Shown here: piece by piece, positions 13,330 to 64,000 of the stretch
How positions within the stretch are numbered: position 1 is the stretch's first letter
Layout: every line of letters starts with the position of its first letter
NCBI RefSeq assembly: GCF_004138295.1
Contig: NZ_SCFM01000016.1
Coordinates: 1 to 64,000 of the forward strand
DNA from: Ectobacillus funiculus
GTDB lineage: Bacteria; Bacillota; Bacilli; Bacillales; Bacillaceae_G
DNA length: 64,000 nt
Direction: 5' to 3'
The notes under the pieces: model-generated
Database searches by the model: none
What the model was told of the DNA's origin: nothing
The model's input: the letters and a program-made list of their open reading frames with translations, nothing else
Program-made: the position numbers and the translations under genes

Positions 13330-13429
13330 AATAGATCTTCTCCCTTCATATGGTAATAGATGCTAATAAGTGACTCTAAAAGTCATCTATACCCTTAAGG
13401 AGAACTTATATGAGGCATGATGCCACATC

Positions 13430-13562
13430 CTCTCTTCATTACGCTTACGAGGTTAGCTGTCGGACTCGGGATTAGAGAGTTTCCCTACCTTAAAAGGATT
13501 CGCCCCTAGTGACTTATAATCACTGGTTTGGTTCCCCCGTTCCTAATTCAGGATTCAGCAAA
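13430..13562 (-). ncRNA. c-di-AMP riboswitch (ydaO/yuaA leader)
   Basis: On the minus strand the conserved blocks appear in the correct order: GCTGAATCC, GGAACGGGGGAACCA, GGGGCGAATC, GTAGGG, CCCGAGTCCGACAGCTAAC and CTCGTAAGC. These are the pseudosymmetric ydaO/yuaA aptamer hallmarks. Downstream (13330-13429) are small hairpins without a T tract, so the expression platform is not clear. Edges are approximate. The gene served is the 38-residue membrane protein. Confidence 0.88.
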
Positions 13563-13722
13563 AAATTTTTTGGTATTTTATAGATTACCATATTTTAACA
13601 ATGAGTGCAAATGAAATTTTTTGGTTGTGGTGCAAAACTCGTTTGTGACATAAAAAAATATGCATGTGTCATGCGACTTGCATTTTGATGAGAGGATAGC
13701 ATCTATTTCTCCACCTGGTTTA

Positions 13723-28410: not shown

Positions 28411-28563
28411 ACTGATGCCCCCATCCTGTAATCCAAAGAGTAGTTAATAATATCCTTTCAAGGGTATCAAAAACTACACATTCACAAACGTCAAATTATG
28501 ACTTTTAAATTTTATCAATCCTTTTTGGTCATAATAAAAATAAAAAAGGAGTTCCCATTAGAA

Positions 28564-29568
28564 ATGGAACATAACCCAAAACTTGTTTCTTCAGAAGTTG
28601 CAGCCTTGTGGGGTGCTTATATGCAGAACTCAATGGTTTATTGTATCGTTCAGCATTTTGCCAATGTAAATGAAGATGCTGATAGTACAGACATTATTCA
28701 AACTGCTTTAACAAATTGTAGTTATGTTGTAAATGAGGTCAAACGAATCTTCGAAAAGGAAAAGCATGCAATACCTATTGGATTTACACAAGAAGATGTA
28801 AACTTAAAAGCGGATCGAGTCTACTCAGACCTTTTTACCTTGCGATATATTAAATACATGGCTGCTGCTGGAACAGCAGCGGCGGCAGCTTTACTCGAAG
28901 TATTGGCACGAAAAGATGTAAGAGAATTTTTTTCTACAACTTCCGAAATGTTTATGAAACTTTACAACAATGCGTGCGACTTACTCCTGAAAAAGGGTGC
29001 TTTTATTCGTTCACCAACTATACCTCCAATGGAAAAAGCCGAATACCTTCAAAATGAATCATTCCTATCAGGATTAATAGGCAAACATCGCCCTTTAACT
29101 GTCGTGGAATTAGCCCATATCTCTAAAAATACGGAAACAAACTCAATTGGTAGAACATTTATTTCTGGTTTTTCCCAAACTGCTCAATCACCTGAAGTTA
29201 GAAAGTATATGGAAAGAGGTGCGGAAATAGCAGCAAAGCATGAAACTGTATTTAGAGAAATATTAGTAGAAGATGGGGTAGCTTTCCCAAGCTCATGGGA
29301 TTCAACAATTTCCCGTTCCATTGAAGCTCCATTTTCAGATAAATTAATGATGTTTCATATGAATAGTCTAACTGCCATTAGTGTAGCAGGTTATGGGGCG
29401 GCGATTGGGGGAAGCCTTAGAAAAGATTTAGGGGGACATTATACAAGACTGCTGACTGAAATACTGCAATATGCAAATGATGGTGTTAAGTTGATGATTG
29501 AAAACAAGTGGCTGGAACAACCACCACAAAATGTAGACAGGGAAGCATTAAGAAAGAGAAGTTTGTAA
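28564..29568 (+). CDS. DUF3231 protein (duplicated ferritin-like/CotF-like domains), first paralogue
   Basis: About 334 residues made of two homologous halves of about 165 residues, each a four-helix bundle ending in a W-L-x-x-P-P block (RSPTIPPMEK; NKWLEQPPQN). Conserved sequence IPIGFTQEDV marks the family. The start is uncertain: ATG 28564 is preferred over the 66-bp upstream extension, with AAAGGAG 12 bases upstream. A paralogue follows at 30123. DUF3231 proteins are numerous in spore formers and related to CotF; role unknown. Confidence 0.82.
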   Translation: MEHNPKLVSSEVAALWGAYMQNSMVYCIVQHFANVNEDADSTDIIQTALTNCSYVVNEVKRIFEKEKHAIPIGFTQEDVNLKADRVYSDLFTLRYIKYMAAAGTAAAAALLEVLARKDVREFFSTTSEMFMKLYNNACDLLLKKGAFIRSPTIPPMEKAEYLQNESFLSGLIGKHRPLTVVELAHISKNTETNSIGRTFISGFSQTAQSPEVRKYMERGAEIAAKHETVFREILVEDGVAFPSSWDSTISRSIEAPFSDKLMMFHMNSLTAISVAGYGAAIGGSLRKDLGGHYTRLLTEILQYANDGVKLMIENKWLEQPPQNVDREALRKRSL

Positions 29569-30122: not shown

Positions 30123-31127
30123 ATGATGATTTCACAGCGAACACCTATCACATCATCAGAATTAGCTAATTTGTGGATGACTTATCAAGAAAAGACCATG
30201 ATTATCAGGATATTAGAGCATTTTATAGAACATGCCGATGATGAAGCAAAGCAACTGTTACAGTCCCATTCTAACACTGCCGCCAAAAATGTAGAGACGA
30301 TTACAAACATTTTTCATCAAGAGGGAGCAGTAATTCCTATCGGCTTTACAGAAAAAGATGTATATAAGGGAGTCCCAAAGTTATATGACTACATGTACGA
30401 TATCATGTATTTGCACATGATGACTAAAGTAGAAATGAGCCTGTATGCACGTTCTCTAGACATGTCTTACCGGAAGGATATTGAAGATTTTTTTATCAGT
30501 TTGACTGCAGAATCTCAAGCGATGAATAGCCAATGCACCCAATTGCTTTTAGAAAAAGGCGTTTTGGTACGCCCACCCTTTGTGTCAATGCCAACAAAAG
30601 TTGGATTTGTACAGAGTACAAATTACACGGACGGGTTAAAGTTATTTGGTGAACTAAGATCTCTTAATACAGTTGAAGTTTCCCTTATCCATCACGCGAT
30701 TGAAACAAATCTTGTAGGAATGCAATTAATGATTGGATTTGCTCAAGTGGCCACTGATAAAGAGGTACAGGACTATTTTGTCAAAGGAATGAAACTTTCA
30801 GAAAAGATAGAAACTTCTCTAGGTGAATTTTTACGTCAGAGTTTTATTGAGCCCCCTGCCACTCCTGCTGGAAAAGCAACCACGTCCAAAATGGCGCCGT
30901 TTTCTGAGAAATTGATGATGTACAACACCAGCTTGCTCACTTCACTTGGATTCGGAAGTAGTGCACTGGGCGGGGCTTTTAGTTTAAGAAGCGACATACC
31001 AACAAAAATGAGCTTGCTGACAAAAGATATTTTCTCTTTTGCTCAGGATGGTGGAAAACTTATGATTAAAAACGGCTGGTTGGAAGAACCTCCACAAATT
31101 GAGGATCGAAATCAGCTCACTACATAA
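30123..31127 (+). CDS. DUF3231 protein, second paralogue
   Basis: 334 residues, same two-halves architecture as the gene at 28564 (shared blocks IPIGFTEKDV, LLEKGVLVRPPF, MIKNGWLEEPP). The ATG pair at 30123/30126 has AGGAGGATTGC, so either may be used. Divergent enough in sequence that the duplication is not recent. Presumably spore-associated; function unknown. Followed by the tandem repeats at 31215-31594. Confidence 0.85.
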   Translation: MMISQRTPITSSELANLWMTYQEKTMIIRILEHFIEHADDEAKQLLQSHSNTAAKNVETITNIFHQEGAVIPIGFTEKDVYKGVPKLYDYMYDIMYLHMMTKVEMSLYARSLDMSYRKDIEDFFISLTAESQAMNSQCTQLLLEKGVLVRPPFVSMPTKVGFVQSTNYTDGLKLFGELRSLNTVEVSLIHHAIETNLVGMQLMIGFAQVATDKEVQDYFVKGMKLSEKIETSLGEFLRQSFIEPPATPAGKATTSKMAPFSEKLMMYNTSLLTSLGFGSSALGGAFSLRSDIPTKMSLLTKDIFSFAQDGGKLMIKNGWLEEPPQIEDRNQLTT

Positions 31128-32116: not shown

Positions 32117-32194
32117 GATTCTTATTAAACGAACGAGTGCTAATTAACTTTCGCTTTCGGATTTTATGTTAACTCAACATGCATAGGACATACA

Positions 32195-32229
32195 AAAAGG
32201 ATACATCTGTACTGAAGAGGTATCCTTTT
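32195..32229. terminator. Bidirectional terminator
   Basis: AAAAGGATAC (32195-32204) pairs with GTATCCTTTT (32220-32229); T-rich on both sides. Ends both the plus-strand membrane protein gene and the minus-strand spo0E-like transcript. Confidence 0.75.
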
Positions 32230-32247: not shown

Positions 32248-32400
32248 TCATTTTTGCACCTTGTTTTTCATAGATATATTGATCAATATATCTAATTTTT
32301 GACTGCATTGAATAGTCTGAGGATGGGCTAACCCATATAATTTGGATAAATAAAACAATTGTTGTCTTTTCTTTTCAATTAGATTTGCAAGACGAGACAT
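32248..32400 (-). CDS. Spo0E-family aspartyl-phosphate phosphatase (50 residues)
   Basis: Short protein, not recorded by long-ORF criteria. It starts MSRLANLIEKKRQQLFYLSK and carries the Spo0E signature in the second helix, CSQKLDILIN (S-x-x-L-D type). Spo0E-like proteins are helical hairpins that dephosphorylate Spo0A~P and block sporulation. ATG at 32400 with GAAGGA about 11 bases upstream. Preceded by a 22-codon ORF (18 bp gap) and a c-di-GMP-I riboswitch, and followed by a terminator, so it is probably the main output of that riboswitch RNA. Confidence 0.8.
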   Translation of the reverse strand: MSRLANLIEKKRQQLFYLSKLYGLAHPQTIQCSQKLDILINISMKNKVQK

Positions 32401-32418
32401 ATTATATTGAAAATCCTT

Positions 32419-32487
32419 CTATCCTAAATCAATAGAATTCGATTTTTGTTTTTGGCCTTTAACTATTTTTTCAATTTTCCCTTGCAT
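32419..32487 (-). CDS. 22-residue ORF between the c-di-GMP riboswitch and spo0E-like gene
   Basis: ATG at 32487 with GGGGGATTAAAGAG immediately after the riboswitch aptamer. The product is basic (MQGKIEKIVKGQKQKS). Its Shine-Dalgarno could pair with an aptamer segment (CTCCAGATC with GATCTGGGG), so its translation may be the event the riboswitch controls. Could be a leader peptide that couples translation to the spo0E-like gene. Confidence 0.5.
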   Translation of the reverse strand: MQGKIEKIVKGQKQKSNSIDLG

Positions 32488-32507
32488 CTCTTTAATCCCC
32501 CAGATCA

Positions 32508-32594
32508 GCGGCAACTCAGCCATCATAGCGATATTGTTACCGCCTTAGATCTGGAGCTTTGCGTCCCTATCTTTCGATAAGTTTGCCTTTATCA
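32508..32594 (-). ncRNA. c-di-GMP-I (GEMM) riboswitch
   Basis: On the minus strand: P1 strand GGCAAAC, GAAA tetraloop in TTATCGAAAGATA, the hallmark GGGACGCAAAGC, the segment CTCCAGATCTAAGGCGG, and the closing GGCTGAGTTGCC. Spacing and order agree with the class I aptamer. No intrinsic terminator is visible between aptamer and the 22-codon ORF, so control is probably translational. Edges approximate. Confidence 0.85.
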
Positions 32595-33195
32595 AATATG
32601 AATTTTTTAAATTTTATGGAAACAAATTATATTATATTAGTTCCTAAACTTATGAACAAGTGGAAAAGTTTCACCTTACATGTAAATTAAAACGTCCGCT
32701 TGAAGCAGCCTAAAAAGGCTGCTTTCTGTTTTTTTCTTTAGAATATTATCTCCTTCTCGAAACCTAATAAAATCAGTGAAATGAATGTATACTTTTGTTA
32801 GACATTTGCAAAATGTCACTAAAAACAAGAAGAGATCAATAAAAACAACAAAACGAATGTAAGCTTTACTCCACGGGTATGCGTTCGGTTCGTCATGCCG
32901 AATCGAATTGCCAAGTAGGGGATGGAAAGGGACTATCGAAAGAACAATTGGAACAGCTTAAATCCCATCGCTGGATTCGGAATTTCTATAAGGCTTGAGG
33001 GTTTCAAGTTGAAATTTATATAAATAAAAAACCAGCTAATCAGTTCCTATCCTTTGGCGATAGAGAAACTTTTAGGGATTTATAATTATGCAAATGAGCC
33101 CGCTGCTTTAGAAGAAGAGCTCGCACGGATTATGCGGTCAATCTCATAATAAGTGTTAGAGATTAAGTGGTTCTGGTTCCAAAAATAGTTAGAGT
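32595..33195. other. Decayed region without intact genes
   Basis: Contains a terminator-like hairpin (around 32705-32730, AGCAGCC...GGCTGCT) and broken coding stretches. Around 32945-32996 one reads LSKEQLEQLKSHRWIRNFYK and near 33058-33150 another ends ALEEELARIMRSIS. Families not identified. With the AraC fragment to the right, it looks like a graveyard of lost genes. Confidence 0.45.
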
Positions 33196-46917: not shown

Positions 46918-47520
46918 TGTGTGCCAGGCATGGCAACTATCTAGGTGGTGAAAGTCCACTGTGGGGGTACATATCGACCAATCACTAAGGAAGCGCAAGG
47001 TACTTATCGTGAGGTAAGGGCTGGAGGAAGCGTGGAATAAAATCTTGGCTCGACGAACAGAAATCTGATACCAAGGCTCTATAAAGGGATGAGACTCCAC
47101 AACAAGTCAAAGTCCAAAAAGATGTGCGTAACTCTGTAGAGTAAATCAGGTGAGTAAAAGAGGAAAGATAGTTGTCTTACCCTGGGAGATCTTGCGGATA
47201 GTAGTACAGTCGGAAAAGGGTAGTCACAAGAAGTTAGCAGAAGCCATAGTAATGAAATACATTCATGAAGAGCCGAACAATTTATAGTGTTTCAACGCCA
47301 CAAATGAGTAAGTGACGTACTCCGAATGTGTTAATGGTAAAGTATGAGCATATCTCAAAGGATAACCAAAATGGGAGCTATCACTTACTACGTGAGAGGA
47401 AAGGAGAAACGAGTGTGGAACTTTTAGAAACAATTCTAAGTAATCAAAATATGAATAAAGCCTACTTGCGTGTCTATAAAAATAAAGGTGCAAGTGGAGT
47501 CGATGGAGTAACAGTCAAGT
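46918..47520 (+). mobile_element. Truncated group II intron (probably class IIC) behind the bla terminator
   Basis: Begins GTGTGCCAGGCATGGCAACT, matching the 5' end of class C introns, with the conserved GGTGAAAGTCC a little later. Class C introns insert just after terminator hairpins, as here. Domains I-III are followed by the first codons of a reverse transcriptase and then unrelated sequence; domains V/VI are missing. Confidence 0.8.
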
Positions 47521-63235: not shown

Positions 63236-63339
63236 CATAACACAGATAAAATGTCACCCTTAAACTTACTTTAATGTGGCTTTTTATTTCGAGAGTCGAA
63301 TATTCAAGAAACGCGCCCGATTGTTGAAGATCGTTATTA

Positions 63340-64000
63340 TAGTGATAGGTAAGCTTTTGAAGTTATCGCCAGCTTTTCCCTCACCTCACACCGTACGGGC
63401 GAGTTTCCTCGCATACGGCGTTCCAACTAATCCAATTCATTCAATATTTTTATGTGTATGCAAGATGAAATGTAGAATCAGATTGCTTCGTTCAGACATT
63501 GCTCACGCAATTTATTGACCTCTTCGAGTTGCTTTTTATTTAACTTGAGTACACTTAAAAGCACTTGTATTTTCTCTTGATTACTCATATGAATGAGGTG
63601 GTGAACAGATTCGTGCAATATCATTAAATTCCCGTATGAATCATCTTTTGTGAGATGGTACGGTGTTTTATGATGACAATGCCAATCGTTCGGTCCTAAT
63701 TCAATTCCTGTGACGGCACATTTCCCGTATTGTGCGATAAACCGGCTAATCCGATTATCATTGTATTCGATGGAACGGCTCGGTATAAATTGTTTCATCA
63801 CATAGGTGAGTGTGTGTTTATTAATTGCCCGCAAGTTTTGATGAATTTTATCTCTACCTGCGGTAGTATAATTACAGATTGTTTGAGAGAAATTTAGATT
63901 TACCTTACATCGTTGGGCATGGATTGGAACAAGCACTATTTCTTTTATTTTATAGAGCTTACATTCATATCCTTTATACCGTTTCTGTAAGGATTTTGTG
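63340..64000 (-). mobile_element. Group II intron, 3' part (cut by window edge)
   Basis: On the minus strand domain V is at about 63388-63428: CGCCGTATGCGAGGAAACTC followed by GCCCGTACGGTGTG, a typical catalytic hairpin with GAAA loop. A domain VI-like stretch with GGGAAAAGCTGGCG follows. The intron end is about 63340. The maturase ORF is inside (63478-63999). Confidence 0.8.
63478..63999 (-). CDS. Group II intron maturase, C-terminal X and HNH domains (partial)
   Basis: Multifunctional intron-encoded protein; only about 174 C-terminal residues are in the window and the frame is open to the edge. The maturase/DNA-binding region (NKHTLTYVMKQFIPSR) precedes an HNH endonuclease: CAVTGIELGPNDWHCHHKTP and NLMILHESVHHLIH. 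The HNH supports target-primed mobility. The reverse transcriptase part lies beyond the window. Confidence 0.88.
   Translation of the reverse strand, partial: TKSLQKRYKGYECKLYKIKEIVLVPIHAQRCKVNLNFSQTICNYTTAGRDKIHQNLRAINKHTLTYVMKQFIPSRSIEYNDNRISRFIAQYGKCAVTGIELGPNDWHCHHKTPYHLTKDDSYGNLMILHESVHHLIHMSNQEKIQVLLSVLKLNKKQLEEVNKLREQCLNEAI

Follow-up and report, generated by a model that had tools for sequence, protein, structure and literature searches.

A predicted c-di-GMP-I riboswitch placed before a mini-ORF and a Spo0E-like gene in Ectobacillus funiculus, and the recurrence of aptamer-Spo0E units in other bacilli

c-di-GMP is associated with sessile life, and the Spo0E family of proteins restrains spore formation. 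A riboswitch that responds to this nucleotide has been placed close to the sporulation circuitry before: in Bacillus methanolicus MGA3 a putative c-di-GMP riboswitch precedes sinI (PMC4342826), so that control of sinI has already been predicted in print. The B. methanolicus targets given in the accessible part of that paper do not include Spo0E, and two of the four have unknown function. In Bacillus thuringiensis, Bc1 and Bc2 are elements of the same class with the same ligand, but their targets are, in the sections available, a chemotaxis receptor and a collagen adhesin and not sporulation regulators as here (PMC5816809). High c-di-GMP reduces early sporulation in C. difficile, as it would in the proposal made below; in the text available, no effect of that organism's c-di-GMP riboswitches on sporulation genes was apparent, under conditions described by the authors as unfavourable to sporulation, and Spo0E is absent from the main text (PMC8653836). 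The signals that act on Spo0E have been called unknown in a source available to us in part (PMC12471899). Our search of the open-access literature found no published link of a c-di-GMP riboswitch to Spo0E, which leaves its absence in print unproven.

The locus described here lies in the window, by which we mean the whole stretch of 64,000 nucleotides analysed (Ectobacillus funiculus, contig NZ_SCFM01000016.1, positions 1 to 64,000). As in the (c-di-GMP)-sinI case of B. methanolicus (PMC4342826, seen in part), the riboswitch here stands before the gene for a small protein that regulates the Spo0A/SinR switch of development. The targets differ, in that SinI antagonises SinR, whereas the Spo0E-like protein is expected to act on Spo0A~P. 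The aptamer-sinI layout is also found in the window's own genus and family. The original prediction had held that riboswitch targets in bacilli are usually adhesins or motility genes; that description is incomplete, since sinI is a recurrent target and was already in print as such (PMC4342826). Rechecking of the coordinates bore out the predicted order of aptamer, mini-ORF, Spo0E-like gene and terminator. The features of the minus strand, read 5' to 3', are as follows.

32631-32659, minus strand: candidate promoter, read from the sequence, with TTGTTC (32659-32654), 17 nt and TATAAT (32636-32631)
32507-32597, minus strand: c-di-GMP-I (GEMM-I) riboswitch aptamer (RF01051, 81.4 bits; gathering score 35)
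32498-32556, minus strand: alternative hairpin that hides the mini-ORF Shine-Dalgarno and excludes the aptamer (-28.6 kcal/mol, z -5.28)
32496-32501, minus strand: mini-ORF Shine-Dalgarno, GGGGGA (accessibility 0.28 free, 0.74 aptamer-enforced)
32419-32487, minus strand: 22-codon mini-ORF, MQGKIEKIVKGQKQKSNSIDLG, in the same frame as the Spo0E-like ORF
32410-32446, minus strand: small hairpin over the Spo0E Shine-Dalgarno, at the mini-ORF end (z -2.36 tight, -0.81 with wider flanks)
32414-32418, minus strand: weak Shine-Dalgarno of the Spo0E-like gene, AAGGA, 13 nt 5' of the ATG (from the sequence)
32248-32400, minus strand: Spo0E-like protein, 50 aa, with S-x-x-x-D as SQKLD (PF09388, 54.2 bits; cutoff 23)
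32194-32229, minus strand: intrinsic terminator (-12.5 kcal/mol; 2 of 200 shuffles as good)

The candidate promoter is absent from a simple promoter scan because its -35 element agrees with the consensus at only three of six positions. The same scan listed no minus-strand site between the aptamer and the Spo0E-like gene, where a promoter would, as the original prediction had pointed out, make expression independent of the aptamer. Elsewhere in the window we observed a c-di-AMP riboswitch (13425-13570, minus strand; RF00379, 101.5 bits), with no minus-strand ORF of at least 150 aa between 10500 and the riboswitch; group II intron pieces at 47003-47175 (plus strand, RF02001) and 63339-63423 (minus strand, RF00029); and a DUF3231 protein at 30123-31127 (254.8 bits), of which the ORF at 28498-29568 looks by eye like a second copy.

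Our preferred reading, to which we assign a probability of about 0.52, is that the riboswitch turns on, at translation, a short operon of the 22-codon leader ORF and the Spo0E-like protein, so that Spo0A~P is lowered and sporulation delayed. Without c-di-GMP, a long hairpin would form between part of the aptamer and the Shine-Dalgarno region; the presence of c-di-GMP would let the aptamer fold and the mini-ORF be translated. Ribosomes arriving at the mini-ORF stop would then melt the small hairpin that covers the Spo0E Shine-Dalgarno and yield the Spo0E-like protein by coupling, and this protein would strip phosphate from Spo0A~P and delay sporulation for as long as c-di-GMP is high.

The two end members of this chain are identified by profile. 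The RF01051 covariance model, suggested as a check by the original prediction, aligns over positions 1-87 of 87 (32597-32507), and the GAAA tetraloop hairpin, the GGGACGCAAAGC core and all four of the aptamer motifs quoted in the original prediction are present. The profile supports a c-di-GMP-I aptamer, which by its class would bind c-di-GMP; our alignment A3 comprises 30 such aptamers and leaves out, among others, L059, L067 and L068, which lie near contig ends. The predicted Spo0E-like identity of the gene directly behind the aptamer likewise held, with a PF09388 score well above the curated cutoff; NCBIfam gave no match at E 0.01. The nearest solved structures are PDB 2c0s (E 2.3e-6) and 2bzb (E 3.4e-4), sequence-related proteins that their depositors name only 'conserved domain protein' and that we take to be Spo0E-like proteins. 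The S-x-x-x-D stretch, which we assume to be the motif of Spo0E-like aspartyl phosphatases, is present in the window protein, and the S...D pair is found in seven of seven linked proteins tested. Family membership suggests that the 50-aa protein dephosphorylates Spo0A~P.

The leader has two mutually exclusive folds. CTCCAGATC (32556-32548) pairs with GATCTGGGG (32506-32498) through nine pairs, one of them G-U, which is the anti-Shine-Dalgarno helix of the original prediction; it proved to be the outer half of a hairpin of ~18 pairs, whose inner half joins GGCGGTAAC (32544-32536) to GTTGCCGCT (32515-32507) in the folding calculation. None of 200 shuffles folded as well as this hairpin, and because it uses the aptamer's own strands, the two structures exclude each other. 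Enforcing the aptamer raises the mean unpaired probability of the mini-ORF Shine-Dalgarno from 0.28 to 0.74. With the native tail the alternative fold gains 12.2 kcal/mol over the aptamer, a gain that 28 of 1000 dinucleotide-shuffled tails matched and that none of 129 natural tails taken at other aptamer loci did. A point against the preferred reading is that the full-length RNA without ligand favours the alternative fold by a wide margin (-39.6 vs -26.6 kcal/mol for the aptamer fold), so that the switch must act during transcription. By computation, then, the window has an expression platform exclusive with its aptamer, a feature that the same test did not find on contig C101 (below). This modelling predicts a translational ON switch with ligand. 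The original prediction of an ON switch at translation thus stands as far as the aptamer fold frees a Shine-Dalgarno, with the qualification that the freed site is that of the mini-ORF and not that of Spo0E; control of the Spo0E-like gene therefore needs translational coupling.

The arrangement is not confined to this locus. Profile searches of the window genome gave seven RF01051 and 15 PF09388 matches, and in all we found seven aptamer-Spo0E units in six genomes of six GTDB families: the window, contig C101 of the same genome, and one unit each in G035, G063, G051, G113 and G233. In the C101 unit an aptamer of 83.3 bits is followed by a Shine-Dalgarno and a single 77-aa ORF that ends in a Spo0E domain (PF09388, 56.9 bits), leader and Spo0E being fused. 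The N-terminal part of this protein is similar to the first SinI helix, scoring 11.3 bits against an in-house profile built from six proteins with filters off (0 of 2000 shuffles as high) and E 0.045 in our aptamer census. With HMMER filters on, this profile gave no match at E 0.1, and Pfam SinI (PF08671) gave none at E up to 10; we consider the C101 N-terminus to be like half a SinI, but do not file it as SinI. In a DNA alignment, the Trp codon of SinI is TGG in C101 and corresponds to the TAG that ends the window mini-ORF, and a search with the C101 protein crosses this TAG at 49% over residues 15-76.

In relatives the aptamer stands before sinI. Three congeners carry aptamer-sinI, with SinI scores that exceed the cutoff, and three of the four genomes of the genus have a PF08671 match; the window genome is the one without, with no SinI gene at E 0.001. 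Within the same family, genus g2 has 13 genomes, of which 10 read as aptamer-SinI (L030, L032 and L034 were unread); nine of these ten also show a SinR-like ORF by eye, and the two g2-type proteins that were run against Pfam fall below the Pfam SinI cutoff of 31.4 bits (31.1 and 18.2). A second SinI gene occurs in congener G002, closely preceded by a weaker c-di-GMP-I aptamer of 43.6 bits (L335 and L039; contig C63, 205-285 and 349-442, minus strand). We propose an aptamer-sinI unit that gained a Spo0E domain as the ancestor of the units in the window and on C101. Comparison of the C101 surroundings with the sinI flanks gave no protein match and no synteny, and C101 might in principle derive from another organism, because contamination of the assembly is estimated at 4.75%.

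The mini-ORF and the Spo0E-like ORF share a reading frame, with the TAG stop between them. The mini-ORF has no Pfam match and is not classed as SinI (PF08671), scoring -0.7 and -1.3 bits, none above zero, against the SinI profile; its likeness to SinI is one of frame and DNA alignment only, and it is possibly a leader peptide or a remnant of a SinI-like N-terminus. The small hairpin at its end stands out from shuffles in the tight window and less so with wider flanks, and a stretch wider still folds no better than shuffles. Keeping a ribosome footprint open at the mini-ORF stop raises Spo0E Shine-Dalgarno accessibility from 0.31 to 1.00, a rise imposed by the constraint itself; a footprint just upstream of the stop gives only 0.43. 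These models lend at best moderate structural support to coupled translation from the mini-ORF to Spo0E, which is plausible. The Spo0E-like gene, with its own weak Shine-Dalgarno, could also be translated independently of the mini-ORF.

Such independence is central to the strongest competing account, which we consider unlikely: that control by the riboswitch is limited to the 22-codon ORF, the residue of a SinI-like N-terminus, and that the Spo0E-like gene is an inserted ordinary copy that escapes control through its own ribosome site. DNA likeness to a free-standing Spo0E gene on contig C65 does start close to the Spo0E ATG (query 237-439), by eye AGAAGG precedes the start in both genes, and the mini-ORF stop sits where the C101 paralog and sinI have their Trp codon. 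An escaping copy is harder to reconcile with the hairpin that covers the Spo0E Shine-Dalgarno, with the lack of a listed promoter between aptamer and gene, with the fusion of leader and Spo0E into one ORF in C101, and with six families that keep the aptamer together with Spo0E.

The leaders of the other units do not extend the ON direction into a general rule: the C101 leader and two sinI leaders are without a predicted switch, and two units carry terminators. In C101 the Shine-Dalgarno is equally accessible with and without the enforced aptamer (0.34), part of it being paired in a helix that closes the aptamer; the sinI leaders of congeners G001 (0.33/0.34) and G002 (0.37/0.30), in each of which one pair was not enforceable, show no predicted switch. 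In G113 and G233 a strong terminator lies between aptamer and gene, and the minimum-energy fold contains it together with an aptamer-like fold. This would suggest an OFF direction, with the antiterminators judged by eye and from minimum-energy folds only, and in G233 the 5' GGC pairing departs from the aptamer consensus. In the intact leaders of the G063 genus, a CTCCTTCGTCG segment in four of five (CTCCTACGTCG in the fifth) can pair either with the aptamer-closing helix or around the start codon. When the closing helix of seven pairs is enforced, it raises AUG accessibility in four of five leaders (the exception falls from 0.48 to 0.38) and lowers Shine-Dalgarno accessibility in four of five.

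These leaders bear on a reading that we judge distinctly less likely than an escaping copy, namely an OFF switch through which c-di-GMP would lower the Spo0E-like protein and raise Spo0A~P, favouring matrix production or sporulation. The terminators of G113 and G233, the loss of part of the C101 Shine-Dalgarno to the closing helix, and the reduced Shine-Dalgarno accessibility in most G063-genus leaders all fit it; against it, the aptamer frees rather than hides the Shine-Dalgarno of the window, and the closing helix exposes the start codon in four of the five G063-genus leaders. For the window itself we retain the ON switch as the preferred reading.

We surveyed the pairing of aptamer and Spo0E at several scales. 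First, in the window family (19 genomes) there are 36 RF01051 matches in 17 genomes and PF09388 matches in 19 of 19, and the two coincide only in the two units of the window genome (lists compared by eye). Second, a census of 143 aptamer cores, recognised by a text pattern among 163 mostly top-scoring and not random loci, found four followed by Spo0E (window, C101, G113 and G233) and nine followed by SinI; the pattern missed unusual cores, and a few were counted twice (L006 and L007 overlap). Third, 34 genomes were taken from 34 other families, one per family among the aptamer-bearing ones (G019, G021, G022 and G045 were left out). Among 150 listed of their 151 aptamers (the missing one is in G042), compared by eye with all 140 of their Spo0E-like genes, there were three aptamer-Spo0E units (G035, G063 and G051), each confirmed on DNA; a contact in G049, 1.4 kb apart, was not counted. 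Chance would give 0.02 by position (P 1.8e-6), or 0.18 under the assumption that every aptamer stands before a randomly chosen gene, with about one gene per kb (P 8e-4). The Pfam scores of the five foreign Spo0E proteins range from 40.2 to 57.6. A one-off arrangement is rejected by this recurrence, which strengthens the pairing beyond the single locus of the original prediction, and a chance overlap of aptamer and gene is disfavoured by the 34-genome comparison.

Within families the pairing is sparse. Across 73 sources (42 related loci, 30 Spo0E loci of the same family, and L012), an aptamer was found only at the C101 copy; one of these, L107, ends at a contig end, with its upstream side outside the data. 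Fifty loci from the families of G113 and G233 showed an aptamer upstream of Spo0E only in those genomes' own units, and in L278 and L279 the aptamer lies on the strand opposite to Spo0E. Of 18 Spo0E loci in the G063 family, five have an intact aptamer (66.8-77.6 bits) and two a weak one, and in 11 no aptamer was found; within the G063 genus the unit is intact in five species, with leaders 90% alike, and decayed in two. The two weak, apparently decayed aptamers before Spo0E (L371 and L374; 22.2 and 19 bits) form, together with the intact ones, a naturally occurring series in which the riboswitch is lost. The full layout of the window locus, mini-ORF included, occurred a single time in our data, and no conservation of its exact leader was found. 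It is very improbable that a real aptamer has lost its true target and now stands by chance before an unrelated small gene: 15 Spo0E-like genes and seven aptamers in one genome make some proximity possible, and around orthologs of the G063 gene two of 18 loci have only a weak aptamer and 11 none that was found, but two of the seven aptamers in the window genome precede Spo0E (P ~1.6e-4, assuming 5400 genes), and the three of 150 listed elsewhere exceed the expectation given above.

Several other c-di-GMP-I aptamers have neighbours of interest. Tandem aptamers (L007 and L006; G000, contig C78, 34607-34691 and 34892-34977, minus strand) precede a thiamine-pyrophosphate enzyme (PF02776, 89.3 bits on the first 90 residues), an unusual target. 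One aptamer stands directly before an ORF named by eye as an ArsR-type-like regulator (L005; G000, contig C82, 20215-20303, plus strand), and one in a relative stands before a CheY-like receiver protein, also by eye (L021; G007, contig C29, 325577-325664, minus strand). In genus g31 (L151, L152, L160 and L164) a Spo0E-like gene lies just upstream of a same-strand aptamer; these loci were set aside.

The presence of the unit in six families suggests repeated selection for this wiring. We tentatively put forward, at somewhat less than even odds, a broader proposal: that throughout the order c-di-GMP exerts direct control over the Spo0A phosphorelay, through riboswitches repeatedly placed before Spo0E-like phosphatases (and SinI), with c-di-GMP as an intracellular signal for Spo0E-type phosphatases and with C101 even encoding a SinI-helix/Spo0E hybrid. 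A riboswitch before a Spo0E-like gene would provide a riboswitch route from c-di-GMP to sporulation, of a kind not described for C. difficile in the available text of the study cited above (PMC8653836). The recurrence of aptamer-Spo0E units in several unrelated bacilli suggests that c-di-GMP directly influences the decision to sporulate.
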